Shown here piece after piece: positions 31,440 through 43,824 of a DNA stretch of 64,000 bases. Both the position numbers and the translations under genes were made by a program. The notes beneath the pieces are model-generated. The model was not told the DNA's origin. It ran no database searches and saw only the letters and a program-made list of their open reading frames with translations. Within the stretch, counting starts at the first letter, position 1, and each line of letters opens with the position of its first letter. The stretch is from Advenella incenata (GTDB lineage: Bacteria > Pseudomonadota > Gammaproteobacteria > Burkholderiales > Burkholderiaceae_B): the NCBI RefSeq assembly GCF_004217095.1, contig NZ_SHKO01000001.1, forward strand, positions 1,736,001 through 1,800,000, in the 5' to 3' direction.

Positions 31440-31713
31440 TTCATTCTCGCAAATGAGCATGTTTATCCGCGCAATTTGACCGTCTGCACGCAGACGACGA
31501 GCTACTTGCGCTTGTGCTACCAGGACCAAATATAGCCTGGAACCTATTCGCCGGGAATCACTTGCCGAGTGCTGCGGCGTTGTGCATTTGGCAGGCATCA
31601 GACAAAAATAAATATTTTCCAGGTGCTGCATCCAAAGACGGTGCCGGCGTGTATTCAGTAAAGCAGGGCAGAACACTGCCGCTGTCCAACAGTCTTTCCA
31701 TTGGAGAATGTTT

Positions 31714-32274
31714 ATGACTTTACAATCGATCGCCCGCCTGTCTCAACCTGTGTGCCTCGCGCTATTGCTGGCCGGAGCTGGCACAATGGCCTACGCCGCC
31801 AGCAGCAGCTTTTCGCAGGACAGCCTGCCCAGCGCCATTAAGGTGCCGGAAGGTAACAAGGTGGCTTGGGAAACCGTAGGTACCGGGGAAATCACCTATG
31901 AGTGCCGCGAAAAGGTCAACGCCGCTGGCCAGACTGAATGGGTGTTTGCTGGTCCCAAGGCTCAGCTTAAAGATCGCACAGGCAAGCAAGTCGGTAATTA
32001 TTACGGTCCTCCTGCCACCTGGGAAGCGATGGACGGCTCCAAAGTGACTGCAACCCAGTTGGCGGTGGCGCCTGCCGGCGATGGCAATCTGCCTTATCAA
32101 CTGGTGAAGGCCAATCCGGCGATGGGGGATGGTAGTATGACTGGCGTCACCTATATCCAGCGCGTGGCGCTCAAGGGTGGTGTGGCTCCCAAAACGGGTT
32201 GCACCGCTGCCAGCAAGGGTGAGAGGATGAAGGTAGCCTACCAGGCCGACTATATCTTCTGGAAAGCGCAATAA
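31714..32274 (+). CDS. DUF3455 secreted protein
   Basis: 186 residues from the ATG at 31714 (GGAG spaced 7 bases; the ATG at 31708 is too close to that site). The signal peptide ends near MAYAAS. The mature part (PEGNKVAWETVGTGEITYECR, GNYYGPPATWEAMDGSKVTA, LPYQLVKANPAMGDGSMTGVTYIQRV, ending with two Cys-flanked segments) is the DUF3455 family, of unknown function. It lies 69 bp before an ECF sigma factor gene and may belong to that regulon. Confidence 0.88.
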   Translation: MTLQSIARLSQPVCLALLLAGAGTMAYAASSSFSQDSLPSAIKVPEGNKVAWETVGTGEITYECREKVNAAGQTEWVFAGPKAQLKDRTGKQVGNYYGPPATWEAMDGSKVTATQLAVAPAGDGNLPYQLVKANPAMGDGSMTGVTYIQRVALKGGVAPKTGCTAASKGERMKVAYQADYIFWKAQ

Positions 32275-32343
32275 ACCAGTGCGGACGAGGCCACCTTGTG
32301 AGCCTGTCCGCAAACCAGAAACCAACCCGGGAATCGAGCGACG

Positions 32344-32910
32344 GTGACGCCTTCTTCTGACAGCTTTGATTACGAGGCCGCGCTGGCTGCATGTGCTGCA
32401 GATCAGCGCGACGCCTTGCTACAGATTTATAATCACGAGGGTGGGCGTCTTTTGGGCGTGGTGTTACGGATTGTTCGCGACAAGGCCATGGCCGAAGATA
32501 TTGTGCATGACACTTGCATAAAGATATGGACCGGCGCGTCGGGCTTTGATCCTGCAAAAGGGACGGCACGTGGCTGGATCTACAGCATAGCGCGCCATCT
32601 GGCGCTCAATGCCGTGCGTGACGGCCGTCGCAATGTCGATCTGGATGATGATGCGGTTGGCGCACTGGATGACAAGGCTTCGCTCGAGGCCTGGAATGAC
32701 ATGACAGACAGTTTCGCCTGGGAAACCAGCCATGGCCGCATCACCTTTTGCCTGGAACAACTTGAGCCAGCGCGACGCAACTGTATCCTGCATGCATATG
32801 TGGATGGCTTCTCCCATCGGGAAATCGCCGAACGCCTAAATGCGCCGCTGGGTACCATCAAGGCCTGGATCAAGCGCAGCCTGGCCGCGCTACGGGAGTG
32901 TATGGCGTGA
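32344..32910 (+). CDS. ECF sigma-70 factor
   Basis: 188 residues from a GTG. Region 2 is RLLGVVLRIVRDKAMAEDIVHDTCIKIW...ARGWIYSIARHLALNAVR; region 4 is LEPARRNCILHAYVDGFSHREIAERLNAPLGTIKAWIKRSL. Sequence style fits the SigK-like ECF group. The stop overlaps the anti-sigma gene (GTGA), so the pair is coupled. Ribosome-binding site is weak. Confidence 0.9.
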   Translation: MTPSSDSFDYEAALAACAADQRDALLQIYNHEGGRLLGVVLRIVRDKAMAEDIVHDTCIKIWTGASGFDPAKGTARGWIYSIARHLALNAVRDGRRNVDLDDDAVGALDDKASLEAWNDMTDSFAWETSHGRITFCLEQLEPARRNCILHAYVDGFSHREIAERLNAPLGTIKAWIKRSLAALRECMA

Positions 32911-33644
32911 GCCCTGTATCTTCGAGCCCATCAGCCGCTGATGTATCCGATTTGGCAGGAGAATATGTGCTGGGCACCTTGTCCGCCCGGCAGCGCCGAG
33001 ATGTGGAGCAACGCCTGGCGCAGGAGCCTGCGTTGCAGGCGGCGGTAGAGGAATGGGAAGCCCGTCTTCTGCCATTGATAACGCTTGTGCCGGCGGTGTC
33101 TCCTTCGCCACGGCTCTGGCCGCGCGTTATCCGCAGCCTGGATGCAATGGAACCTGTCGCCACCTCAGCGCCGCGCGCCAGCCGGTATGGAGTACGGGAT
33201 TCGTTGTGGCGCTCACTGGCATTTTGGCGAGGACTGACTGTTGCCGGCTTTACTGCTGCGGCAATCGCCATGATGATACTGCCAGCCCAGTTCGGCACGC
33301 CCGAAACGCGATTTATGGTGGTGCTGGTTGCACCGGGCGACAAATCGCCCGGCTGGGTTGTGCAGGCGCGTACCGACCAGCGGGTCGAGTTAATTCCACT
33401 GGGCATGCTGCAAGTGCCTGCCGACAAGTCCCTGCAGTTCTGGACTAAAGCCGATGACTGGAAAGTGCCAGTATCGCTGGGTATTGTTCAACCGGGTGAG
33501 CGTGTAACCGTACCGCTTGATAATTTGCCCGGCTTACAGAAAAACCAACTGTTCGAGCTGACGCTGGAGCCACGCACAGGTTCGCCGACAGGGCGGCCTA
33601 CCGGACCGATCCAATTTATCGGCCGGGCGGTGCAAGTGTACTGA
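32907..33644 (+). CDS. Anti-sigma factor, RskA-like
   Basis: 245 residues from the GTG at 32907, with GGGAG eight bases upstream. The N-terminal cytoplasmic zinc-less anti-sigma domain (DLAGEYVLGTLSARQRRDVEQRL) is followed by one transmembrane helix (about 100-120, LTVAGFTAAAIAMMILP) and a periplasmic RskA domain (KSLQFWTKADDWKVPVSLGIVQPGE). It would hold the upstream ECF sigma factor inactive until a periplasmic signal triggers release. Confidence 0.88.
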   Translation: MSPVSSSPSAADVSDLAGEYVLGTLSARQRRDVEQRLAQEPALQAAVEEWEARLLPLITLVPAVSPSPRLWPRVIRSLDAMEPVATSAPRASRYGVRDSLWRSLAFWRGLTVAGFTAAAIAMMILPAQFGTPETRFMVVLVAPGDKSPGWVVQARTDQRVELIPLGMLQVPADKSLQFWTKADDWKVPVSLGIVQPGERVTVPLDNLPGLQKNQLFELTLEPRTGSPTGRPTGPIQFIGRAVQVY

Positions 33645-33704: not shown

Positions 33705-33726
33705 ATGTAATGTTATAACATATCAT
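33705..33726. promoter_or_regulatory. Palindrome upstream of the TonB receptor
   Basis: A perfect 12-bp palindrome, ATGTTATAACAT (33710-33721), extends with 18 of 22 matching positions over 33705-33726. AT-rich palindromes of this kind are typical of Fur-superfamily (Fur, Zur) operators. It lies 60 bp before the receptor gene. The 136-bp gap is too short for a cobalamin riboswitch and shows none of its conserved boxes. Assignment to a metal regulator is inference. Confidence 0.5.
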
Positions 33727-33780
33727 CTTTTTGCAACTGCAATAACGATTCACGAGGCTGCATGTGAATCAGAAAACGAA

Positions 33781-35796
33781 ATGCAAACCGGATATGGTAT
33801 GAGTGAAAGAAGTAGAGCGGTGTCGAGCCTGATTGTGCTGGCAGTCTGGAGCATTGGAGCACAGGCTCAAACCCAGTCTACGGGAGAAGGACGACAAAGA
33901 ACGGGACAATCAGTCGCATCGCCGCAGGATGGTTATGTGACAACTTTGCCAAGCGTTGTTGTCACGGCGACTGCCAGCGAGCGAGCTTCCAGCGATGTGC
34001 CTGCCAGTATTACGGTTGTGTCGGGCGAAGACATCCGCCGGCGTCCCGTGAATGATCTGGCAGATGCACTGAAAGGTACGGTCGGGGTCAGCCTGGAGGA
34101 CGTCGGCCAGGGGCGCAGAGGTATTTCGATTCGCGGCATGAGCGCGGAGCATACCCTGATGCTGGTCGATGGACAGCGTGTCAGCTCGTCTGCCTCGGCG
34201 ATCGCGCACTCGGATATGGAACTGGGCTGGGTGCCAGCCGAGGCCATCGAACGACTGGAAGTTGTACGTGGGCCAATGTCTTCGCTGTATGGGTCGGAGG
34301 CCCTTGGCGGCGTTGTGAACGTCATTACCCGTTCGGCTACCGACCGTTGGATCGGCTCTTTGAGCAGCTATGCATTGGCCACCGATCACGGCCTGGGCGG
34401 TAATCAGTATAAAAACGGATTCTATATTGCCGGTCCCCTCATCGCAGGACGCCTGGGCCTGACAGCCTGGGGGGAGTTCAGGCAGCGTCACATGTTGCGC
34501 GATGCTGCCAATACGGCGTTAAGTGCACTGGACCGACAGCGCGCCACGACAGGGCATCTTGGATTGAGTTGGACGCCGGACGCGCGTCAGCGTATCGACC
34601 TGTCTGTCGATGCAGTCAACGAAAACCAGGCTGGTGTGTACGGCGGGGCTCGCGGTATTGCCTATCGTTCCGAAAATGAAATTCAGCGCCGCCGTTATGC
34701 CTTATCTCACACCGGGGAGTGGGACTGGGGAAGTACCCGGACCAGGTTGTATCGCAGCACACTTGATCGGCAAATATGGCGCAGCGATGGCGATAAGGCC
34801 AGTGGTCCCAACCGTTTCGTCGATACTGTCTTTGATACTCAAGCAAGTTTTCCGCTCAATTCCATTCATCGACTGACCATAGGCGGTCAGTTCAGGCGGG
34901 AAAGCCTGGAAGATCCCAATGTGAATCGCGTCGGCAAAAAAGTACAAAATCATTATGCGCTTTTCATGCAGGATGAGATAACGCTTGGCGACCGCTGGGA
35001 ACTGGTGCTGGGCGCTCGTTTTGACCGACACGAGCAATTCGGGTGGGAGATCAGCCCTCGTGCGTATTTGCTTTATCATCCTGTGCAAGGCCTGACTCTG
35101 AAGGCCGGCGTGGGGCGCGGCTTCAAAGCGCCTACGCTCAAGCAGTTGTCGGCCGAGTTCGAATCTTGGGCAGCGATGGGTGGGCGGGGCGTTATCCGGG
35201 GCAATCCCGATTTGCAACCGGAAACCAATCTTTCCTACGAACTGGGAGCGGCCTATGAAGCAGATACCTGGTCGGCCGGAGCCACTTTTTTCCATAACAA
35301 CGTGCGCAATCTGATTGATACCGTCAGGCAGTCCACTTGTTTTGCTCCCGGCCGCGTTTGTCTGGCATACGAAAATGTTGCCAGGGTTCGCCTGCAAGGG
35401 GTGGAATTGACGGCTGGTGCGGATCTTTCCGCGCGCTGGCGACTGGATGGCAACTATACCTATCTGGATGCTCGCGATCAAATCACAGGGGAACCGATGA
35501 CAGATCGTTCCCGACATCGCGCCAATGCCACATTGGCCTGGAAACCGCTGGCGTCTTTGTCTACACGCATGCAACTCGAGTATATCGGCGCACAATTTCG
35601 TTCAGACAAACAAGGCAAGCGTCCCGGCTATACGCTGTTGCACTGGTATATGGATTACGCCTTGAGCAGCAACCTCACTGTGCAGGTTGGTGTGGAGAAC
35701 CTGACGGATAAGCGTCTGGCCAACGAAGATATCGGCCTTTTCAGTCGGGCGGACGAGGGGCGGCGCTACTTTGTCGGAATGCGGGTGCAGTTTTGA
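33781..35796 (+). CDS. TonB-dependent outer-membrane receptor
   Basis: 671 residues. The signal peptide (SLIVLAVWSIGAQAQT) is followed by a TonB-box-like VVVTATASERAS, a plug domain (DLADALKGTVGVSLEDVGQGRRGISIRGM...ERLEVVRGPMSSLYGSEALGGVVNVIT) and a 22-strand barrel ending in the outer-membrane signature with terminal Phe (MRVQF). Size and motifs resemble BtuB/CirA-class receptors for cobalamin, haem or metallophores. It is the first gene of a four-gene unit; its TGA overlaps the CobN-like ATG. Start is tentative as no ribosome-binding site is seen. Confidence 0.92.
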   Translation: MQTGYGMSERSRAVSSLIVLAVWSIGAQAQTQSTGEGRQRTGQSVASPQDGYVTTLPSVVVTATASERASSDVPASITVVSGEDIRRRPVNDLADALKGTVGVSLEDVGQGRRGISIRGMSAEHTLMLVDGQRVSSSASAIAHSDMELGWVPAEAIERLEVVRGPMSSLYGSEALGGVVNVITRSATDRWIGSLSSYALATDHGLGGNQYKNGFYIAGPLIAGRLGLTAWGEFRQRHMLRDAANTALSALDRQRATTGHLGLSWTPDARQRIDLSVDAVNENQAGVYGGARGIAYRSENEIQRRRYALSHTGEWDWGSTRTRLYRSTLDRQIWRSDGDKASGPNRFVDTVFDTQASFPLNSIHRLTIGGQFRRESLEDPNVNRVGKKVQNHYALFMQDEITLGDRWELVLGARFDRHEQFGWEISPRAYLLYHPVQGLTLKAGVGRGFKAPTLKQLSAEFESWAAMGGRGVIRGNPDLQPETNLSYELGAAYEADTWSAGATFFHNNVRNLIDTVRQSTCFAPGRVCLAYENVARVRLQGVELTAGADLSARWRLDGNYTYLDARDQITGEPMTDRSRHRANATLAWKPLASLSTRMQLEYIGAQFRSDKQGKRPGYTLLHWYMDYALSSNLTVQVGVENLTDKRLANEDIGLFSRADEGRRYFVGMRVQF

Positions 35797-38700
35797 TGCG
35801 ATTGTCACGATTGATCTGGCGCATTTGCTATTACCTGCTCATTGGGGTGGCTGGCATGGCGCCTGTCTACGTATCCGCCGCTCCCGTGGTGCAAGTGCTG
35901 CACAATGGTTTTGTTTCGGCAGAAAAATTTCGGCATTTGCAGACTGTCGCCGAACGCCAAGCAATGGGGCTGCGGCATCTGAATGTTGAGACCGCGTCGC
36001 CGCAGGCGATAAGCGCGGCCGTTGCGGCTGGGGTACTTACCGTGCTGGACGTACCCAGGCCGGGTGACCGATCGATGGTCGAGCAGCGGCTGGAACAAGC
36101 ACTACAGCAACAGAAGATCCGTGGTGCTATCCGCTTGACCGTAGGTGGCGGCCGACCCGCCTGGCACGGCCTGGAGGCACCCGTGGGTGGCCTATTGGCC
36201 GAGCTCTATGCAGCGGGTGGTGAAGCGAATTACGGACGTTTTTTTGCGCTGGCCAGGTCAATTCATGAAGGCGTTGCGCCGTCCCCTGACTTGCTGGCGC
36301 CGCCTGAAAAGCTGCCTGCTGCTGGCTTTTATCATCCGCAAGCCTCTCGCGTCTTCGATAATGTACAGTCCTATCTGAATTGGCACGCATCAGCAGCCTC
36401 TCCCTCGAGGCCGGATTCCATTGGCCGGGTGGCGTTTTTGATATCCCGGCATATAGTGACAGATTTTGTGACCGGTGAAGTGGATGAATTGATTCGTCGC
36501 AGTGAGACCGCCGGCTTATTGCCTATTGTTTTCTGGGCCGATGCAGATGATCCGGAGGGATTGCAGGGGGCGCTGAAAAGTGCTGCGGTGGATGTGCTGG
36601 TCAACCTGACGCATATGCGAGGCGGTGCACAGCGCACCCGCGATTTCAAAGCGTTGAATGTTCCGGTAATCCAGACGCTGAGTTTTCGCGAAGGCGAAGC
36701 ACGCGACTGGCCCGCTGCGCCTAGCGGTGTCAATGCGCGTACTGCCGCTGTTTTCCTGGCCGGACCGGAAGGATGGGGTGTCAGCGACCCCCTGGTGCTG
36801 TCTGCCGTCACAGCAGGGGTAGACGAGCTCCTGCCGCAACAAGCGCAGGCATTGATCGGTAAACTACGAAGCCTGGTCGCCTTGCGACATACCCGTGCAG
36901 CGGACAAGCGGCTCGCCTTGATGTTCTGGAATTACCCGGCGGGCGAGAAAAACCTGGGCGCATCCAATCTGAATCTGCCGCGCAGTATTGTTTCCATTCA
37001 GGGGGCATTGGCGGGGCAAGGTTATGATGTGGGCGAGCCCGTGAGCGAAAAAGAGGTCATCGATAAAGGCCAGCGTATGCTGGGTGCCCTTTACGGTAGC
37101 GTATCGCTGGACGACCTACTGGCAGAGGATCTGGCAGCACTGTATCCGCTGTCTGCTTATGAAAGCTGGCTTGCTGGTCTGCCGGATGAGCGGCAGAGAC
37201 AATTACGTCGTCATGGCTCGCCTGACGGGCATCGGGCGATACGAAAGATTAATGGTCAGCTTCACTTCGTGATTCCCCGGTGGAAGATCGGACATTTGCT
37301 GGTAATGCCGCAGATGCCGCGCCATGCCGACGCGGCTAAGCACTATCATGACACCGCCAGTGTACCGGATCATCTTTATATGGCGGCCTATCTGTATTTG
37401 CAGCAACAATACGCTGCCCATGCACTGATTCACCTGGGCACACATGGTTCCCAGGAATGGCTTCCTGGCAAAGATCGCGGGCTGGCTGCCAGCGATTATT
37501 CCTGGCTGGCAGTGGGCAGCATGCCGGTGTTCTATCCCTATATTCAGGATAACGTAGGCGAAGCCATCCAGGCCAAGCGGCGGGGGCGGGCTGTGATTAT
37601 CAGTCACCAGACGCCTCCCTTTGCGCCTGCCGGGTTATACGACCAGTTGCGCGATCTGCACCATCTGATTCATGAATATCAGCAGCTTGACGAGGGAATA
37701 GTCCGCAAGCAAGTGTCATTGCGCATCCGGGAGGCAGCATTCGCGGCGAACCTGCATCGTGACCTGGGTTGGAGTGATCTGCAGGCCGAACGTGATTTTC
37801 CCGGCTTTCTTCAGGTCGTCCATAACCAGTTGCATGAACTGGCGCGTACGGCTACGCCACTGGGATTACACACCTTTGGGCAACCCGCGAGCGATGAGCA
37901 CCGGGCCGGCACCATCGTGCAGCAGCTCGGAGAGCCCTTCTATGCAGCGCTGGGGATCGATAGGGAAGAGCTGTTTGTCGACGATCACAAACAGCTGAAA
38001 AATAATCCAGCCTATCTCGCCTTACATGAACTACTGAAGCCAACCATTAAAAGTGCGCTGCCTGGGCGTATTGCCGGTTTTGCCGATCGTGCCAGGGCGA
38101 ATGATCTGCGTTTACGTGACACCCAGGAAAATGAGGCGTTACTTGCCGGACTGGCCGGTGGTTTCGTTGCGCCGGGCGCCGGTGGCGACCCCATCCGCAA
38201 CCCAGATGTAATGAGCGGTCGCAATTTATACGCCTTTGAGGCCGACAAAATTCCCACCAGAGCAGCATATGACTCAGCTGCGATGGCTTACGAACAGCTT
38301 GTTCAGGCATTCCGATCCGAACATGATGGCCAGTGGCCTCGCAAGCTTGCGTTTAGCTTATGGTCATCCGAGGCGATTCGCCACTTGGGAATGACTGAGG
38401 CGCAGATTCTGCATGCGCTTGGCCTGCGTCCGGTCTGGGATGCAGGAGGTCGCATCACTGCGCTGGAAATTATCCCGACCACGGAACTGGGGCGGCCACG
38501 CACGGACGTCGTGATTCAAGTTACCGGTGTGTACCGCGACCAGTTCGACAGTTTCATGCGCCTGCTTGATGACGCGCTGGTCCGCCTTGCCGCACTGGAA
38601 GAGCCGGATAATCCGATTGTGGCCAACAACCTACGTATCGCCACTCTATTGCGCCAACAGGGTATGCCATCGGATCAGGCCGCGGCCGCAGCCCGATATC

Positions 38701-39731
38701 GAATTTTTGGCAACGCTCCCGGGCAGTATGGTACGGGCGTGCCCGATCTGGCCCTGCGTTCTACCGAATGGAACGATGATGGCGAACTGGCACAGCATTT
38801 TCTTGCGAGCAGCAGGCACGTATACGGCAGGGGACAATGGGGTGCCCGCTTATCAAAAACGAATCTGCTGGCCGAACAACTGCGCGGTACACAGGCGGCG
38901 ATTATGTCTCGGTCTTCGAATCTGCATGGTGTGCTCTCAACGGACCACCCATTTGAGTTTCTGGGAGGTTTATCGGCGGCGGTACGACACCTTGATGGCC
39001 AGGCTCCGCAAATGCTGATTTCCGATTTGCGTGACGGCCGGGTAAGCACCACCGGGCTGGCGCGATTTCTGGCCAATGAGCTGCGCGCACGTTACCTGAA
39101 CCCGCAATGGATTGATTCCATGCAGCAGGAAGGATATGCCGGCACGTTGCAGGTGCTCAATGTCACTAACAATTTGTTCGGCTGGCAGGTCATGGACCCG
39201 ACATCCGTACGTGACGATCAATGGCAGGCCATGTTTGACACCTATGTGAACGACACGCGAGAACTGGGTACGCGCGAGTGGTTCGAGCAGCACAATCCTA
39301 CGGCGCAGGCGCAGATACTTGAACGGATGGCCGAAGCCATGCGCAAGGGCTACTGGAATGCATCCGAGCAAACGCGGCGCGACCTGGTCCAGCGCTGGCA
39401 GCAACTGGCCGAACAATTCGATGTACACACCGGCGCCGAGGCGACGCGTCGTTACATCGCTGATATTGCCAAGGGTTTTGGTTTGGCTTCAGGGGCGGCG
39501 CCCGACACGGACGCAGGATCCGCCCATGCCCAAACGGCGGATACTCAAGGTTCAACAGAGCAGGAGCTACAAGCCGTGCATGGGCAGATTCTGGAGCGCG
39601 TGGAAGTTTCTGCCGAACCGTCGCCGGAAACGCCACTGGCTTTACTCTTGTTGCTGTTTGTCGCGGTCACTGGCGGAGTGCGCCAGTGGTGGGTCGACCG
39701 CCAATTGACACAGCGCACAGATTTGACCTGA
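35796..39731 (+). CDS. CobN-like chelatase, predicted periplasmic and membrane-anchored
   Basis: 1311 residues from the ATG overlapping the receptor stop (TGATG). The body is a CobN/magnesium-chelatase H-type subunit, with the conserved HLGTHGSQEWLPGK block near residue 546 and later NPDVMSGRNLYAFEADKIP. Unlike cytoplasmic CobN it begins with a signal sequence (LSRLIWRICYYLLIGVAGMAPVYVSAAP) and ends with a transmembrane helix (PLALLLLLFVAVTGGVRQWW) before a short basic tail, so the catalytic body should face the periplasm. No CobS, CobT or ChlI/D partner is present. A role in inserting or removing metal in an imported tetrapyrrole or metallophore is inference. Confidence 0.88.
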   Translation: MRLSRLIWRICYYLLIGVAGMAPVYVSAAPVVQVLHNGFVSAEKFRHLQTVAERQAMGLRHLNVETASPQAISAAVAAGVLTVLDVPRPGDRSMVEQRLEQALQQQKIRGAIRLTVGGGRPAWHGLEAPVGGLLAELYAAGGEANYGRFFALARSIHEGVAPSPDLLAPPEKLPAAGFYHPQASRVFDNVQSYLNWHASAASPSRPDSIGRVAFLISRHIVTDFVTGEVDELIRRSETAGLLPIVFWADADDPEGLQGALKSAAVDVLVNLTHMRGGAQRTRDFKALNVPVIQTLSFREGEARDWPAAPSGVNARTAAVFLAGPEGWGVSDPLVLSAVTAGVDELLPQQAQALIGKLRSLVALRHTRAADKRLALMFWNYPAGEKNLGASNLNLPRSIVSIQGALAGQGYDVGEPVSEKEVIDKGQRMLGALYGSVSLDDLLAEDLAALYPLSAYESWLAGLPDERQRQLRRHGSPDGHRAIRKINGQLHFVIPRWKIGHLLVMPQMPRHADAAKHYHDTASVPDHLYMAAYLYLQQQYAAHALIHLGTHGSQEWLPGKDRGLAASDYSWLAVGSMPVFYPYIQDNVGEAIQAKRRGRAVIISHQTPPFAPAGLYDQLRDLHHLIHEYQQLDEGIVRKQVSLRIREAAFAANLHRDLGWSDLQAERDFPGFLQVVHNQLHELARTATPLGLHTFGQPASDEHRAGTIVQQLGEPFYAALGIDREELFVDDHKQLKNNPAYLALHELLKPTIKSALPGRIAGFADRARANDLRLRDTQENEALLAGLAGGFVAPGAGGDPIRNPDVMSGRNLYAFEADKIPTRAAYDSAAMAYEQLVQAFRSEHDGQWPRKLAFSLWSSEAIRHLGMTEAQILHALGLRPVWDAGGRITALEIIPTTELGRPRTDVVIQVTGVYRDQFDSFMRLLDDALVRLAALEEPDNPIVANNLRIATLLRQQGMPSDQAAAAARYRIFGNAPGQYGTGVPDLALRSTEWNDDGELAQHFLASSRHVYGRGQWGARLSKTNLLAEQLRGTQAAIMSRSSNLHGVLSTDHPFEFLGGLSAAVRHLDGQAPQMLISDLRDGRVSTTGLARFLANELRARYLNPQWIDSMQQEGYAGTLQVLNVTNNLFGWQVMDPTSVRDDQWQAMFDTYVNDTRELGTREWFEQHNPTAQAQILERMAEAMRKGYWNASEQTRRDLVQRWQQLAEQFDVHTGAEATRRYIADIAKGFGLASGAAPDTDAGSAHAQTADTQGSTEQELQAVHGQILERVEVSAEPSPETPLALLLLLFVAVTGGVRQWWVDRQLTQRTDLT

Positions 39732-39778
39732 ACCCATTTTCATTTTTCCGATTGATCCCTATAACCCGAGACAACCTA

Positions 39779-40288
39779 ATGGACTTTTTTTCCGATATCG
39801 AACACTTGTTATACGCAGTCTCCCGCGTTTTTCTTATGCCGGTCCTGCTTCTCATTGTTTTGTCTCTATTGTATGCAGTAGGGATGCTGGGGGCGTTTTT
39901 GGTTGAAGGCTGGCAACGGCGTCGGCAGGCAAGCGTCGATAGGCTGCTGAAACAGGCCAGGAATTATTTACAGCGTCAGGCAATATCTTCTGGTGATCTG
40001 GAACTGTATATCCTGAAACAGCTGGAATGGCTGCGGATTGTGTCACGCACTGCACCGATGCTGGGCCTTATCGCCACCATGATTCCCATGGGGCCGGCTT
40101 TGCTGGCGCTGGGCAATGGTGATGCGACAGAAGTAGGTAAAAACATGGTGGCCGCGTTCTCGGCTGTTATTCTCGCACTGCTGGCTGCCAGCCTTTGTTT
40201 TTTCATCCTCACTATACGACGCCGCTGGCTGCTGCAGGATTTGCATCGGGCTGAACGTACCCTGTTATTGCAAGAGGAGTCGGCATAA
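39779..40288 (+). CDS. ExbB/TolQ/MotA-family proton channel subunit
   Basis: 169 residues from the ATG at 39779. It has an N-terminal helix (LMPVLLLIVLSLLYAVGMLGAFLVEG), a cytoplasmic loop, and two helices, the first with the ExbB hallmark RTAPMLGLIATMIPMGPALLAL and the second AFSAVILALLAASLCFFIL. ExbB-type proteins carry proton flow that powers outer-membrane receptors. It lies 47 bp after the CobN-like gene and its stop overlaps the DUF2149 start, so it is most likely dedicated to this system. Confidence 0.88.
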   Translation: MDFFSDIEHLLYAVSRVFLMPVLLLIVLSLLYAVGMLGAFLVEGWQRRRQASVDRLLKQARNYLQRQAISSGDLELYILKQLEWLRIVSRTAPMLGLIATMIPMGPALLALGNGDATEVGKNMVAAFSAVILALLAASLCFFILTIRRRWLLQDLHRAERTLLLQEESA

Positions 40289-40614
40289 TGCGTTTCCTTG
40301 AGGACGATGACACCGATCCCATGCTGTCGGTCGTCAATCTCATCGACCTGTTTCTGGTCATCATTGGGCTGCTGATGGTTGTGATCGCACAGAATCCGCT
40401 AGGCCCATTAGCCGGGGAAAACGTGGTTGTGGTAGAGAATCCGGGCCAAGCCGAAATGCGCATTACTGTCAAAGAGGGCAAAGAACTGACGCGCTACGAA
40501 TCCAGTGGCAAGGTTGGTGAAGGGCAGGGGGCACGCGCGGGCGTGACCTATCGATTGGATGATGGCCGGATGATTTACGTGCCTGAGAGTGGGGCTAAAG
40601 AACTAATTCAGTAG
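40288..40614 (+). CDS. DUF2149 protein, ExbD-like
   Basis: 108 residues, start overlapping the ExbB-type stop (TAATG) with AGAGGAG upstream. A short acidic cytoplasmic N-terminus (EDDDTDPM) is followed by one transmembrane helix, LSVVNLIDLFLVIIGLLMVV, with Asp20 at the helix start, and a ~75-residue periplasmic domain. This is the topology of ExbD/TolR, including the single membrane Asp. DUF2149 is the family I recognise; the ExbD analogy is my inference. Confidence 0.85.
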   Translation: MRFLEDDDTDPMLSVVNLIDLFLVIIGLLMVVIAQNPLGPLAGENVVVVENPGQAEMRITVKEGKELTRYESSGKVGEGQGARAGVTYRLDDGRMIYVPESGAKELIQ

Positions 40615-40727: not shown

Positions 40728-42047
40728 ATGATCCACTATCTGAAGCGAGGCCGCTCGGCCGAGGTCAAAACCGACGATGACGCCAAAGTGCGCGCCACGG
40801 TCGAAGAAATTATCCGTCGTATTGAAAAGGACGGTGATGAAGCCGTCCGTGAGTACAGTCGTAAGTTCGATAACTGGGATCCGGCCGACTTTCGGCTGTC
40901 TCGTGACCAGATCACTGCAGCACGCAAGCAACTGTCTGCACGCGAAATCGAAGATATTGCGTTTGCCCAGAAACAGGTTCGCAATTTCGCGCAGATCCAG
41001 CGAGATTCCATGAAAGATGTGGAAGTAGAGACTTATCCGGGCGTCGTTTTAGGCCATAAGCACATTCCGATGAATGCGGTGGGCTGTTATATTCCCGGCG
41101 GCAAGTACCCGTTGCTCGCATCGGCCCACATGAGCGTGCTGACCGCAAAGGTGGCAGGCGTCAAGCGCATCGTTTCTACAGCGCCGCCGTATCAGGGCAA
41201 GCCGCATCCTGCCATTGTTACTGCGATGGACATGGCCGGTGCCGACGAAATTCTGGTGCTCGGCGGCGTGCAGGCCGTTGTGGCCATGGCGGTCGGTACG
41301 CCCAGTGTCGCTCCTGTGGATATGCTGGTCGGTCCTGGCAACATGTTCGTTGCCGAAGCCAAGCGCCAGTTGTATGGTCGCGTAGGCATTGACCTTTTTG
41401 CCGGACCAACCGAAACGCTGGTGATCGCCGATGACAGTGTGGACGGCCAGTTGTGCGCCGTCGATCTGCTGGGTCAGGCTGAACATGGTCCCACCTCGCC
41501 CGCCATATTGTTGACGACCAGCGAAAAACTGGCGCGCGACACGATGGCCGAGATCGAGCGCCAACTTAAGATATTGCCCACCGCAGCGATTGCCAAGAAA
41601 AGCTGGGACGATTGTGGTGAAGTCATCGTCTGTGATACCGATGAAGAAATGCTTCGCGTTGCCGATGAGCTGGCTTTTGAACATGTGCAGGTCATGACGC
41701 ATGATCCTGATTATTTCCTGAATAACATGACAAATTACGGGGCGCTGTTTTTGGGTCCGCGTACAAATGTGAGTTTCGGCGACAAGGTCATCGGCACCAA
41801 CCATACCTTGCCTACCAATCGCAACGCACGTTATACAGGAGGGTTGTGGGTTGGCAAGTTTTTGAAGACCTGCACGTATCAACGCGTGCTCACTGACGCG
41901 GCCAGCGTCACCATGGGTGAATACTGCTCCCGGTTATGCCATATGGAAAACTTCGCAGGTCATGGCGAGCAGGCCAATATTCGGGTACGTCGTTATGGCA
42001 ACCGTCCCGATTTGCCCTGGTATGAACCGGTAAAGGATCAGGCATGA
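40728..42047 (+). CDS. Histidinol-dehydrogenase-family oxidoreductase
   Basis: 439 residues of the HisD family, with [65 protein letters not shown], and metal-site residues Gln/His in [13 protein letters not shown] and His in [17 protein letters not shown]. The organism's biosynthetic HisD would lie in a his operon; this copy heads a LacI-controlled catabolic cassette, like the paralogues that oxidise sulfopropanediol or other polyols (HpsN type). It probably takes an alcohol to the acid by a two-step NAD-dependent oxidation; substrate unknown. Confidence 0.85.
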
Positions 42048-42811
42048 TGCAATTGCCTCAAAGCCCGGATTTTCGGCTGGACGGCAAACGTGCACTGGTA
42101 ACAGGCGCTAGCAGCGGCATCGGGCTGGCCGCGGCCACCGCGTTAGGCCGAGCCGGCGCCCATGTAACACTGGCGGCGCGCCGGGCAGCCGAACTCGAAA
42201 GCGCGTGCGCAGCCTTACGTGACAGCCAGATCTCGTGTGATTTTGTGGTGCTGGACGTGACATGCTCGGCAGATGTTGATGCTGCCGTTGCGGATGCATC
42301 GCCATACGACATTCTGGTAAACAACGCGGGAATGAACCGGCCTGTGCCTCTGGTCGAACAGAGCGATAGCGACATCGACGAGGTATTCGACCTGAACGTA
42401 AAGGCAGCGTTCTATACCAGCCGGGCAGTGGCACGAAAACTGCTGGCGGCCAAGCGCCCCGGCTCCATGATCAACATTTCATCACAGATGGGTCATGTAG
42501 GAAGTGCGCGACGGGTATTGTATTGTGCGAGCAAGCACGCCATGGAAGGCATGACCAAGGCCCTGGCCTGGGAATTGGGGGCAAATGGTATCCGGGTAAA
42601 TACGATCTGCCCCACCTTTATTGAAACGCCTATGACTGCAGCGATGTTTGACAAGCCTGGCTTTAGGCAGTGGGTTTGCGAACGAATTGCGCTGGGACGT
42701 CTGGGTCGCGTCGATGAGGTTATGGGGGCAGTGGTGTTTCTGGCCAGCAGTGCGTCCAGCCTGATGACAGGCAGTGCCCTGATGCTGGATGGAGGCTGGA
42801 CCGCAGCATGA
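42044..42811 (+). CDS. Short-chain dehydrogenase/reductase
   Basis: 255 residues; the start overlaps the upstream stop by 4 bp. Motifs are [15 protein letters not shown], catalytic Ser in [15 protein letters not shown] (Tyr/Lys) and the C-terminal LMLDGGWTA. An NAD(P)-dependent sugar, polyol or hydroxyacid dehydrogenase is likely. Its stop overlaps the LacI start, so it is in the same transcript as the HisD-like gene and the regulator. Confidence 0.9.
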
Positions 42812-43824
42812 AAACAGCACCACGCGCGCAAGATGTGGCTGATCTGGCGCAAGTATCGCAATCGGCAGTCAGCCGCACTTTCACACCAGGTGCCAGCGTA
42901 TCCGAAAGCACGCGCAACAAGGTGCTGGCCGCTGCACAGCGCCTGGGTTACCGGCCAAATGCCCTGGCCCGAAGTCTGATCACGCGGCAAAGCCGCATCG
43001 TGGCATTGGTGATGAGCTATCTGGAGAACCAGTTTTATCCATTGGTGATTGAAAAGCTGTCCCAGAAACTGCAAAAGCAGGGCTATCACGTACTGATGTT
43101 CATTGCGGATATAGACGAAGGCGCAGATGGGGTGTTGGCCGATATCCTGCAATACCAGGTCGAGGGCATCGTCATGGCCTCAACCATGTTGTCACCGACG
43201 TTGGCCAAAAGTTGCTCTGACGTGGGGGTGCCTGTTGTCCAGTTCAATCGCATCTCGGATTTGGGCGGACTGACACGCTATGCGACCAGTTCCGTGACGT
43301 CCGACAATGCAGCTGGTGGACGTCTGGCTGCTGAACTGTTAGTGGCCAGGGGCTACAAACGAATCGCGTTTCTGGCTGGATTGGAGGATTCCTCAACCAG
43401 CCTGGAGCGTGAGCGAGGCTTTAAGGAGGCGCTGTCCGAGTTGGGGACAAGCGTGTCTTATCGTGATACGGGCCATTACAGTTTTGATGGGGCGAAAGAT
43501 GCAGCACGACGTCTGTTTGGCCATGCCGATCGTCCTGACGCGGTGTTTGTCGCGAACGATCACATGGCAATCGCGGTCATGGACGTGTTGCGCCAGGAAT
43601 TTTGCTTGCGCGTACCCGAAGAGGTGGGCGTAATCGGTTTTGACGATGTTCCCCAGGCGGCCTGGGGAGCGTACCAATTGACCACTGTCTATCAACGGGT
43701 GGAACCCATGGTAGACGCTACGGTTGAACTTTTGCTTGAACAGATGCGTGGTGAAGTGCGCGCACGCGAGATCGTGGTTCCGTGCATGTTGGTGGAAAGA
43801 AAAACAGTCAGACCCGCAGCGTAG
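42808..43824 (+). CDS. LacI family transcriptional regulator
   Basis: 338 residues: HTH (AQDVADLAQVSQSAVSRTFTPGASVSESTRNKVLAAAQRLGYRPNALARSL) and a periplasmic-binding-protein-like effector domain (VEGIVMASTMLSP; AVFVANDHMAIAVMDVL; VGVIGFDDVPQAAW). Encoded inside the cassette it probably controls, with the palindrome at 40652 as candidate operator. Overlaps the SDR gene by 4 bp. Confidence 0.92.
   Translation: MKTAPRAQDVADLAQVSQSAVSRTFTPGASVSESTRNKVLAAAQRLGYRPNALARSLITRQSRIVALVMSYLENQFYPLVIEKLSQKLQKQGYHVLMFIADIDEGADGVLADILQYQVEGIVMASTMLSPTLAKSCSDVGVPVVQFNRISDLGGLTRYATSSVTSDNAAGGRLAAELLVARGYKRIAFLAGLEDSSTSLERERGFKEALSELGTSVSYRDTGHYSFDGAKDAARRLFGHADRPDAVFVANDHMAIAVMDVLRQEFCLRVPEEVGVIGFDDVPQAAWGAYQLTTVYQRVEPMVDATVELLLEQMRGEVRAREIVVPCMLVERKTVRPAA

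Follow-up and report, generated by a model that had tools for sequence, protein, structure and literature searches.

Two described gene sets come closest to the operon analysed here. (i) In Pseudomonas aeruginosa, the genes PA1922–PA1925 form an operon under Zur control; they encode a TonB-dependent receptor, a CobN-like and an Exb-type product, and one small protein (PMC4542158, PMC8531726). Their expression rises 45–147 fold in a znuA mutant (PMC4542158) and the PA1922 promoter is bound by Zur (PMC8531726). PA1922 is frequent in Stutzerimonas stutzeri, and its control by Zur has been regarded as seemingly unique to P. aeruginosa (PMC10393844). (ii) In Bacteroidota, hmuYRSTUV encodes a receptor, the doubly anchored CobN-like protein HmuS, and ExbB-like and DUF2149 proteins (L103 and L104 in our set). 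HmuS of Bacteroides thetaiotaomicron takes iron out of heme; His538 is essential, the exchange H538A abolishing heme conversion, and His1209 and Glu1212 face it (PMC12583661). Two roles have been published for the ExbB/DUF2149 pair, energising of the receptor by HmuU/HmuV (PMC12583661) and heme transport across the inner membrane (PMC13227078). The large subunits of CobNST cobaltochelatase and of ChlHID/BchHID magnesium chelatase share family and fold with these CobN-like proteins, but belong to cytoplasmic systems driven by AAA+ ATPases.

We analysed a 64,000-nucleotide stretch of the Advenella incenata genome (the window), in which a four-gene operon combines a TonB-dependent receptor with CobN-like, ExbB-type and DUF2149 proteins. 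With PA1922–PA1925 and hmuYRSTUV as known relatives, this gene set is not new. The likeness to PA1922–PA1925 is judged from the gene descriptions in the papers and from Stutzerimonas stutzeri loci among the relatives (L035, L040, L048); a point of difference is that PA1924 is termed an ExbD homologue in the papers and PA1925 has no assigned function. In contrast to hmu, the operon lacks HmuY and HmuT and is under predicted control by zinc (Zur) rather than iron. In our preferred reading, to which we give a probability of about 50%, it is a Zur-controlled zinc-scavenging operon that would import a zinc complex, release the zinc in the periplasm by means of the CobN-like protein and use the ExbB–DUF2149 pair as energy source.

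Gene organization and predicted zinc-responsive control

All four genes point in the same direction (Table 1). The end of the receptor gene and the start of the CobN-like gene overlap at TGATG, the ExbB TAA and the DUF2149 ATG overlap at 40288 (TAATG), and 47 bp (39732–39778) separate the CobN-like from the ExbB gene. Open reading frames, coordinates and Pfam matches agree with the original prediction of four genes joined by stop-start overlaps or a 47-bp gap. For the receptor, CirA and other siderophore receptors are the nearest NCBIfam models, every one far under its cut-off. The CobN-like and DUF2149 genes are each the sole copy of their kind in the 4.9-Mb genome, and the CobN-like protein is 89% identical to that of Advenella sp. 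FME57 (Alcaligenaceae). A survey of gene neighbourhoods, proposed together with the original prediction, found the set and its order (receptor, CobN-like, ExbB, DUF2149) kept across Alpha-, Beta- and Gammaproteobacteria, at nearly every one of 80 related loci; the few exceptions are short contigs or carry another receptor class.

Table 1 Features of the operon (positions in the window)
Feature	Position	Strand	Evidence
Zur box GTAATGTTATAACATATC	33707..33724	+	2 mismatches to the znuA palindrome GTTATGTTATAACATAAC; best site in the window
TonB-dependent outer-membrane receptor, 671 aa	33781..35796	+	Pfam Plug 1.5e-27, TonB receptor barrel 1.1e-64
CobN-like class I chelatase-family protein, 1311 aa from ATG at 35796	35796..39731	+	Pfam CobN-Mg_chel over 138-1194, 1.2e-292
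N-terminal hydrophobic signal sequence RLSRLIWRICYYLLIGVAGMAPVYVSAAP	35799..35885	+	Hydropathy 1.87; kept in relatives
His550 of HLGTHG, equivalent to HmuS His538	37443..37445	+	Alignment
His1051 and Glu1054 of LSTDHPFEFLGG, equivalent to HmuS His1209 and Glu1212	38946..38957	+	Alignment; His/Glu in 79/80 relatives
C-terminal membrane segment TPLALLLLLFVAVTGGV	39630..39695	+	Hydropathy 2.24; kept in relatives
ExbB/MotA/TolQ-family protein, 169 aa	39779..40288	+	Pfam MotA_ExbB 4.9e-7
DUF2149 protein, 108 aa	40288..40614	+	Pfam DUF2149 2e-26

The flanking genes lie outside the conserved set: an anti-sigma gene stops 136 bp upstream and a histidinol-dehydrogenase-family gene begins 113 bp downstream. 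The upstream genes (31708–33644; a DUF3455 protein, an ECF sigma factor and an RskA-type anti-sigma factor) form an apparently separate unit. Those downstream (40728–43824; a histidinol-dehydrogenase-family protein, a short-chain dehydrogenase and a LacI-type regulator) probably form an unrelated catabolic operon.

A scan of the 4.9-Mb genome for Zur sites with the pattern RTGTTATANNATAWCAY, allowing at most one mismatch, returned four distinct sites, all at zinc genes: at the operon itself, at a ZnuA-family gene, in the zur-COG0523/znuCB intergenic region and at zinT. The zur gene encodes a Fur-family protein whose best NCBIfam model is Zur, with a score under the cut-off, and adjoins the gene for the COG0523 GTPase. 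A first, strict pattern, TGTTATAACA, is by itself no evidence because its 6 sites were outnumbered by the 8 of the reversed control, and the longer pattern is the decisive one. Across the family, a Zur site (at most 5 mismatches of 18) precedes 56 of 74 related operons, while at the same loci 7 of 512 regions ahead of other genes have one. Since a Zur box precedes the genes, the other top sites lie at zinc genes and related operons carry the site so much more often than their neighbours, the operon is, as far as its sequence can tell, a zinc-starvation operon of the PA1922–PA1925 type. The original prediction of an uptake system holds as to uptake, but had missed the Zur box and the zinc regulon. 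The presence of Zur boxes in related operons elsewhere also makes it too narrow to say, as PMC10393844 does, that PA1922 seems to be under Zur only in P. aeruginosa.

As a separate observation, three Zur-box operons (L042, L046 and L054; 1 to 5 mismatches) combine the same chelatase core with a quite different receptor class, which suggests receptor exchange.

Neighbourhoods of the ExbB–DUF2149 pair

The DUF2149 protein is predicted to consist of one membrane helix (residues 11–35, confidently predicted) and a small periplasmic domain. It is the best conserved product of the smaller genes: Asp10, Pro11, Ser14, Asn17 and Asp20 are invariant, the last of these (codon 40345–40347) lying inside the helix and invariant in 52 sequences. 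Its resemblance to ExbD is limited to a short helix, with a weak profile match of 18 columns at 26% probability, and the predicted model (mean pLDDT 65) is too poor for a structure search.

The plausible competing explanation, which we hold at somewhat less than even odds, is that ExbB and DUF2149 act as a dedicated ExbBD pair and, together with a TonB, drive the receptor encoded in their own operon, while the CobN-like protein works independently. Receptor and pair do share an operon in the window, they are co-transcribed in P. aeruginosa (PMC4542158), and the published hmu model assigns HmuU/HmuV precisely this receptor role (PMC12583661). The neighbourhoods of the family argue otherwise. 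DUF2149 was looked for in 398 Pseudomonadota genomes and in 369 of the same class; at each of the 35 loci that were sampled independently and scored above the Pfam cut-off, CobN-like and ExbB genes adjoin it, in varying gene order. Most DUF2149 loci do have a receptor nearby, but the receptor is the variable member: it belongs to a different class in L042, L046, L047 and L054, it is undetected in the flanks of L137, L139, L179 and L182 with an HMM that may miss distant receptors because it was built from the window's receptor family, and a plasmid (L105) carries the bare trio of CobN-like, ExbB and DUF2149 genes. The operon, moreover, includes no TonB, the Advenella genome has two ordinary ExbD/TolR genes, and the archaeon Methanosarcina acetivorans, which is without an outer membrane, has DUF2149 and CobN and no ExbD match. 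At ten control loci of ATP-type CobN or BchH, several with AAA+/VWA partners, no DUF2149 or ExbB neighbours were found. One weak DUF2149 match without a CobN neighbour (L185) fell under the cut-off and was taken as a chance match.

Because the link to CobN-like genes is constant and the link to receptors loose, we favour the view that the ExbB–DUF2149 pair would power the chelatase rather than the receptor; a constant neighbourhood does not prove motor function. A wider proposal is more tentative and on balance doubtful: exported class I chelatases might be driven by protons, with ExbB and DUF2149 as the motor that replaces the ATP-driven AAA+ partners CobST and ChlID, which cannot work in the periplasm. 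The same core would then serve zinc in Zur-controlled operons, cobalamin under riboswitches and heme iron in hmu operons, the version in the window being a zinc-porphyrin de-chelatase.

The cobalamin branch is represented by proteobacterial clusters with cobalamin riboswitches at or near them (L105, L125, L135–L138, L140, L141). They share with the window the CobN–ExbB–DUF2149 core and the exported CobN-like proteins, and differ in the riboswitch, in an Asn or Asp at the position of the second catalytic His and in their placement on separate tree branches. All sampled Zur-box members fall into one clade (100 SH-aLRT) with the riboswitch-type proteins and HmuS outside it, in what is a quick tree with long branches. 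Further variants of the core were observed: (i) a branch with LTTDDPFQY-type motifs and no clear Zur box or cobalamin riboswitch (L126–L131), and (ii) exported CobN-like proteins with HLGRHSTYEF and NNDxFDY motifs (L137–L141, L175–L184). Three clusters read in detail (L137, L138, L140) are of the cobalamin salvage type, with riboswitches and no CobST seen there.

Location and active site of the CobN-like protein

Hydropathy supports both the signal sequence and the C-terminal anchor that the original prediction had assigned to the CobN-like protein, and with them a periplasmic location. Nearly all relatives whose ends are complete have both segments. None of ten CobN/BchH controls has the C-terminal segment, and at the N-terminus most fall under the hydropathy threshold; in the two above it (L142, L145) the peak is the first strand of the head domain and not a signal sequence. 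The protein is thus most likely exported and anchored in the inner membrane, lying outside it; as a precedent, HmuS of Porphyromonas gingivalis expressed in E. coli localises to the inner membrane and is exposed to the periplasm (PMC13227078).

The best PDB relative is the HmuS heme dechelatase (9d26; 1.1e-129), with about 27% identity over the aligned protein. The catalytic His/His/Glu set of HmuS (Table 1; residues numbered from the ATG at 35796) and its neck ligand His254 (in NLTHM) are kept, but an xPR loop stands in place of the head ligand Met79, and the substrate must therefore be loaded differently. Since Met79 is not kept, and since the Met-rich insertion is missing from the alignment and HmuT and HmuY from the operon, the CobN-like protein is not HmuS, although its residues indicate that it would work in a similar way. 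At the second motif, corrin-type CobN controls have Asp or other residues, whereas His is found in the protoporphyrin enzymes BchH (L149) and ChlH. Within this small sample of ChlH and HmuS sequences, the His of the window protein suggests a ring of porphyrin-like rather than corrin type. The AlphaFold model (mean pLDDT 80.8) matches CobN, ChlH and HmuS structures; Foldseek ranks HmuS first and VIA-align ranks CobN first, and for this reason the fold identifies a class I chelatase only and assigns no substrate. NCBIfam model NF004644 (score 1658, cut-off 1248) names the protein cobaltochelatase subunit CobN, a name that is probably misleading for the Zur-type clade. On these data, the Zur-type CobN-like proteins probably stand beside HmuS as zinc de-chelatases.

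These residues also weigh against the view taken in reviews of PA1922–PA1925 (PMC8456098, PMC10393844), in which free zinc ions would be imported and the CobN-like protein would be a periplasmic zinc-binding or storage protein without catalysis. Zur control is consistent with such a role, but simple zinc binding would not need a complete tetrapyrrole de-chelatase active site and cavity motifs, and CobN homologues bind rings; we consider free zinc import unlikely.

A cobalt or corrinoid system is less probable still. Cobalt or zinc would be inserted into a ring, or cobalt salvaged to replace zinc in starvation; the P. aeruginosa znuA mutant indeed contains more cobalt (PMC4542158), cobalamin riboswitches govern sister loci and the NCBIfam name points to cobalt. 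The window, however, has no cobalamin riboswitch, the Advenella genome gave no match to CbiC/CobH, on which corrin rings depend (7 of 14 control genomes were positive), and the riboswitch-type relatives are those with the exchanged catalytic residue and the separate branches. The original prediction had left it open whether metal is inserted or stripped. The HmuS-type His/His/Glu set speaks for stripping, and insertion or a cobalamin role becomes less likely because CbiC and a window riboswitch are missing and the catalytic His is of the porphyrin type.

The statement that no CobS/CobT is present stands for the window but not for the genome, in which a search revealed no second CobN-like gene but a CobS/CobT-like AAA+/VWA pair far from the operon (L100:2721-5446; G000:C2, about 525720–528446). 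The pair stays under the NCBIfam cut-offs (CobS 491 bits against 559, CobT 285 against 759), has no adjoining CobN and lies beside acetolactate-synthase-like and phosphotransacetylase-like genes. That the CobN-like protein is an ordinary cytoplasmic cobaltochelatase subunit served by this pair in cobalamin synthesis is largely refuted, and very improbable, given the signal and membrane segments, the missing CbiC, the Zur control and the scores and neighbours of the pair.

Zinc scavenging and its meaning for the family

For the zinc-scavenging reading we infer the following course; what is transported, which way the reaction runs and what the motor does are all part of that inference. Upon zinc starvation, Zur would leave its box and the four genes would be transcribed. 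The receptor would carry zinc over the outer membrane as a complex, probably with a porphyrin or a similar ring; the anchored CobN-like protein would bind this complex in the periplasm and free the zinc through its HmuS-type apparatus, and the freed zinc would enter the cell via ZinT/ZnuA–ZnuBC. ExbB and DUF2149 would act as a proton-driven membrane pair that energises the chelatase, which is more likely than energising the receptor only. Of the earlier suggestion that a metal complex or tetrapyrrole is imported, uptake is retained, with the metal probably removed from a tetrapyrrole-like complex. A search of the literature for cases in which such an operon draws its zinc from zinc porphyrin or coproporphyrin returned nothing useful.

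CobN-like genes in zinc regulons are annotated as cobaltochelatase and have so far been explained as cobalt or free-zinc systems. Zur control of CobN-like operons is widespread rather than confined to P. aeruginosa, and DUF2149 with its ExbB partner is tied to exported CobN-like proteins at every sampled locus. For HmuU/HmuV and PA1924/PA1925, so far unexplained, the question becomes whether the receptor or the chelatase is energised, and this can be tested via the neighbourhoods of the family.
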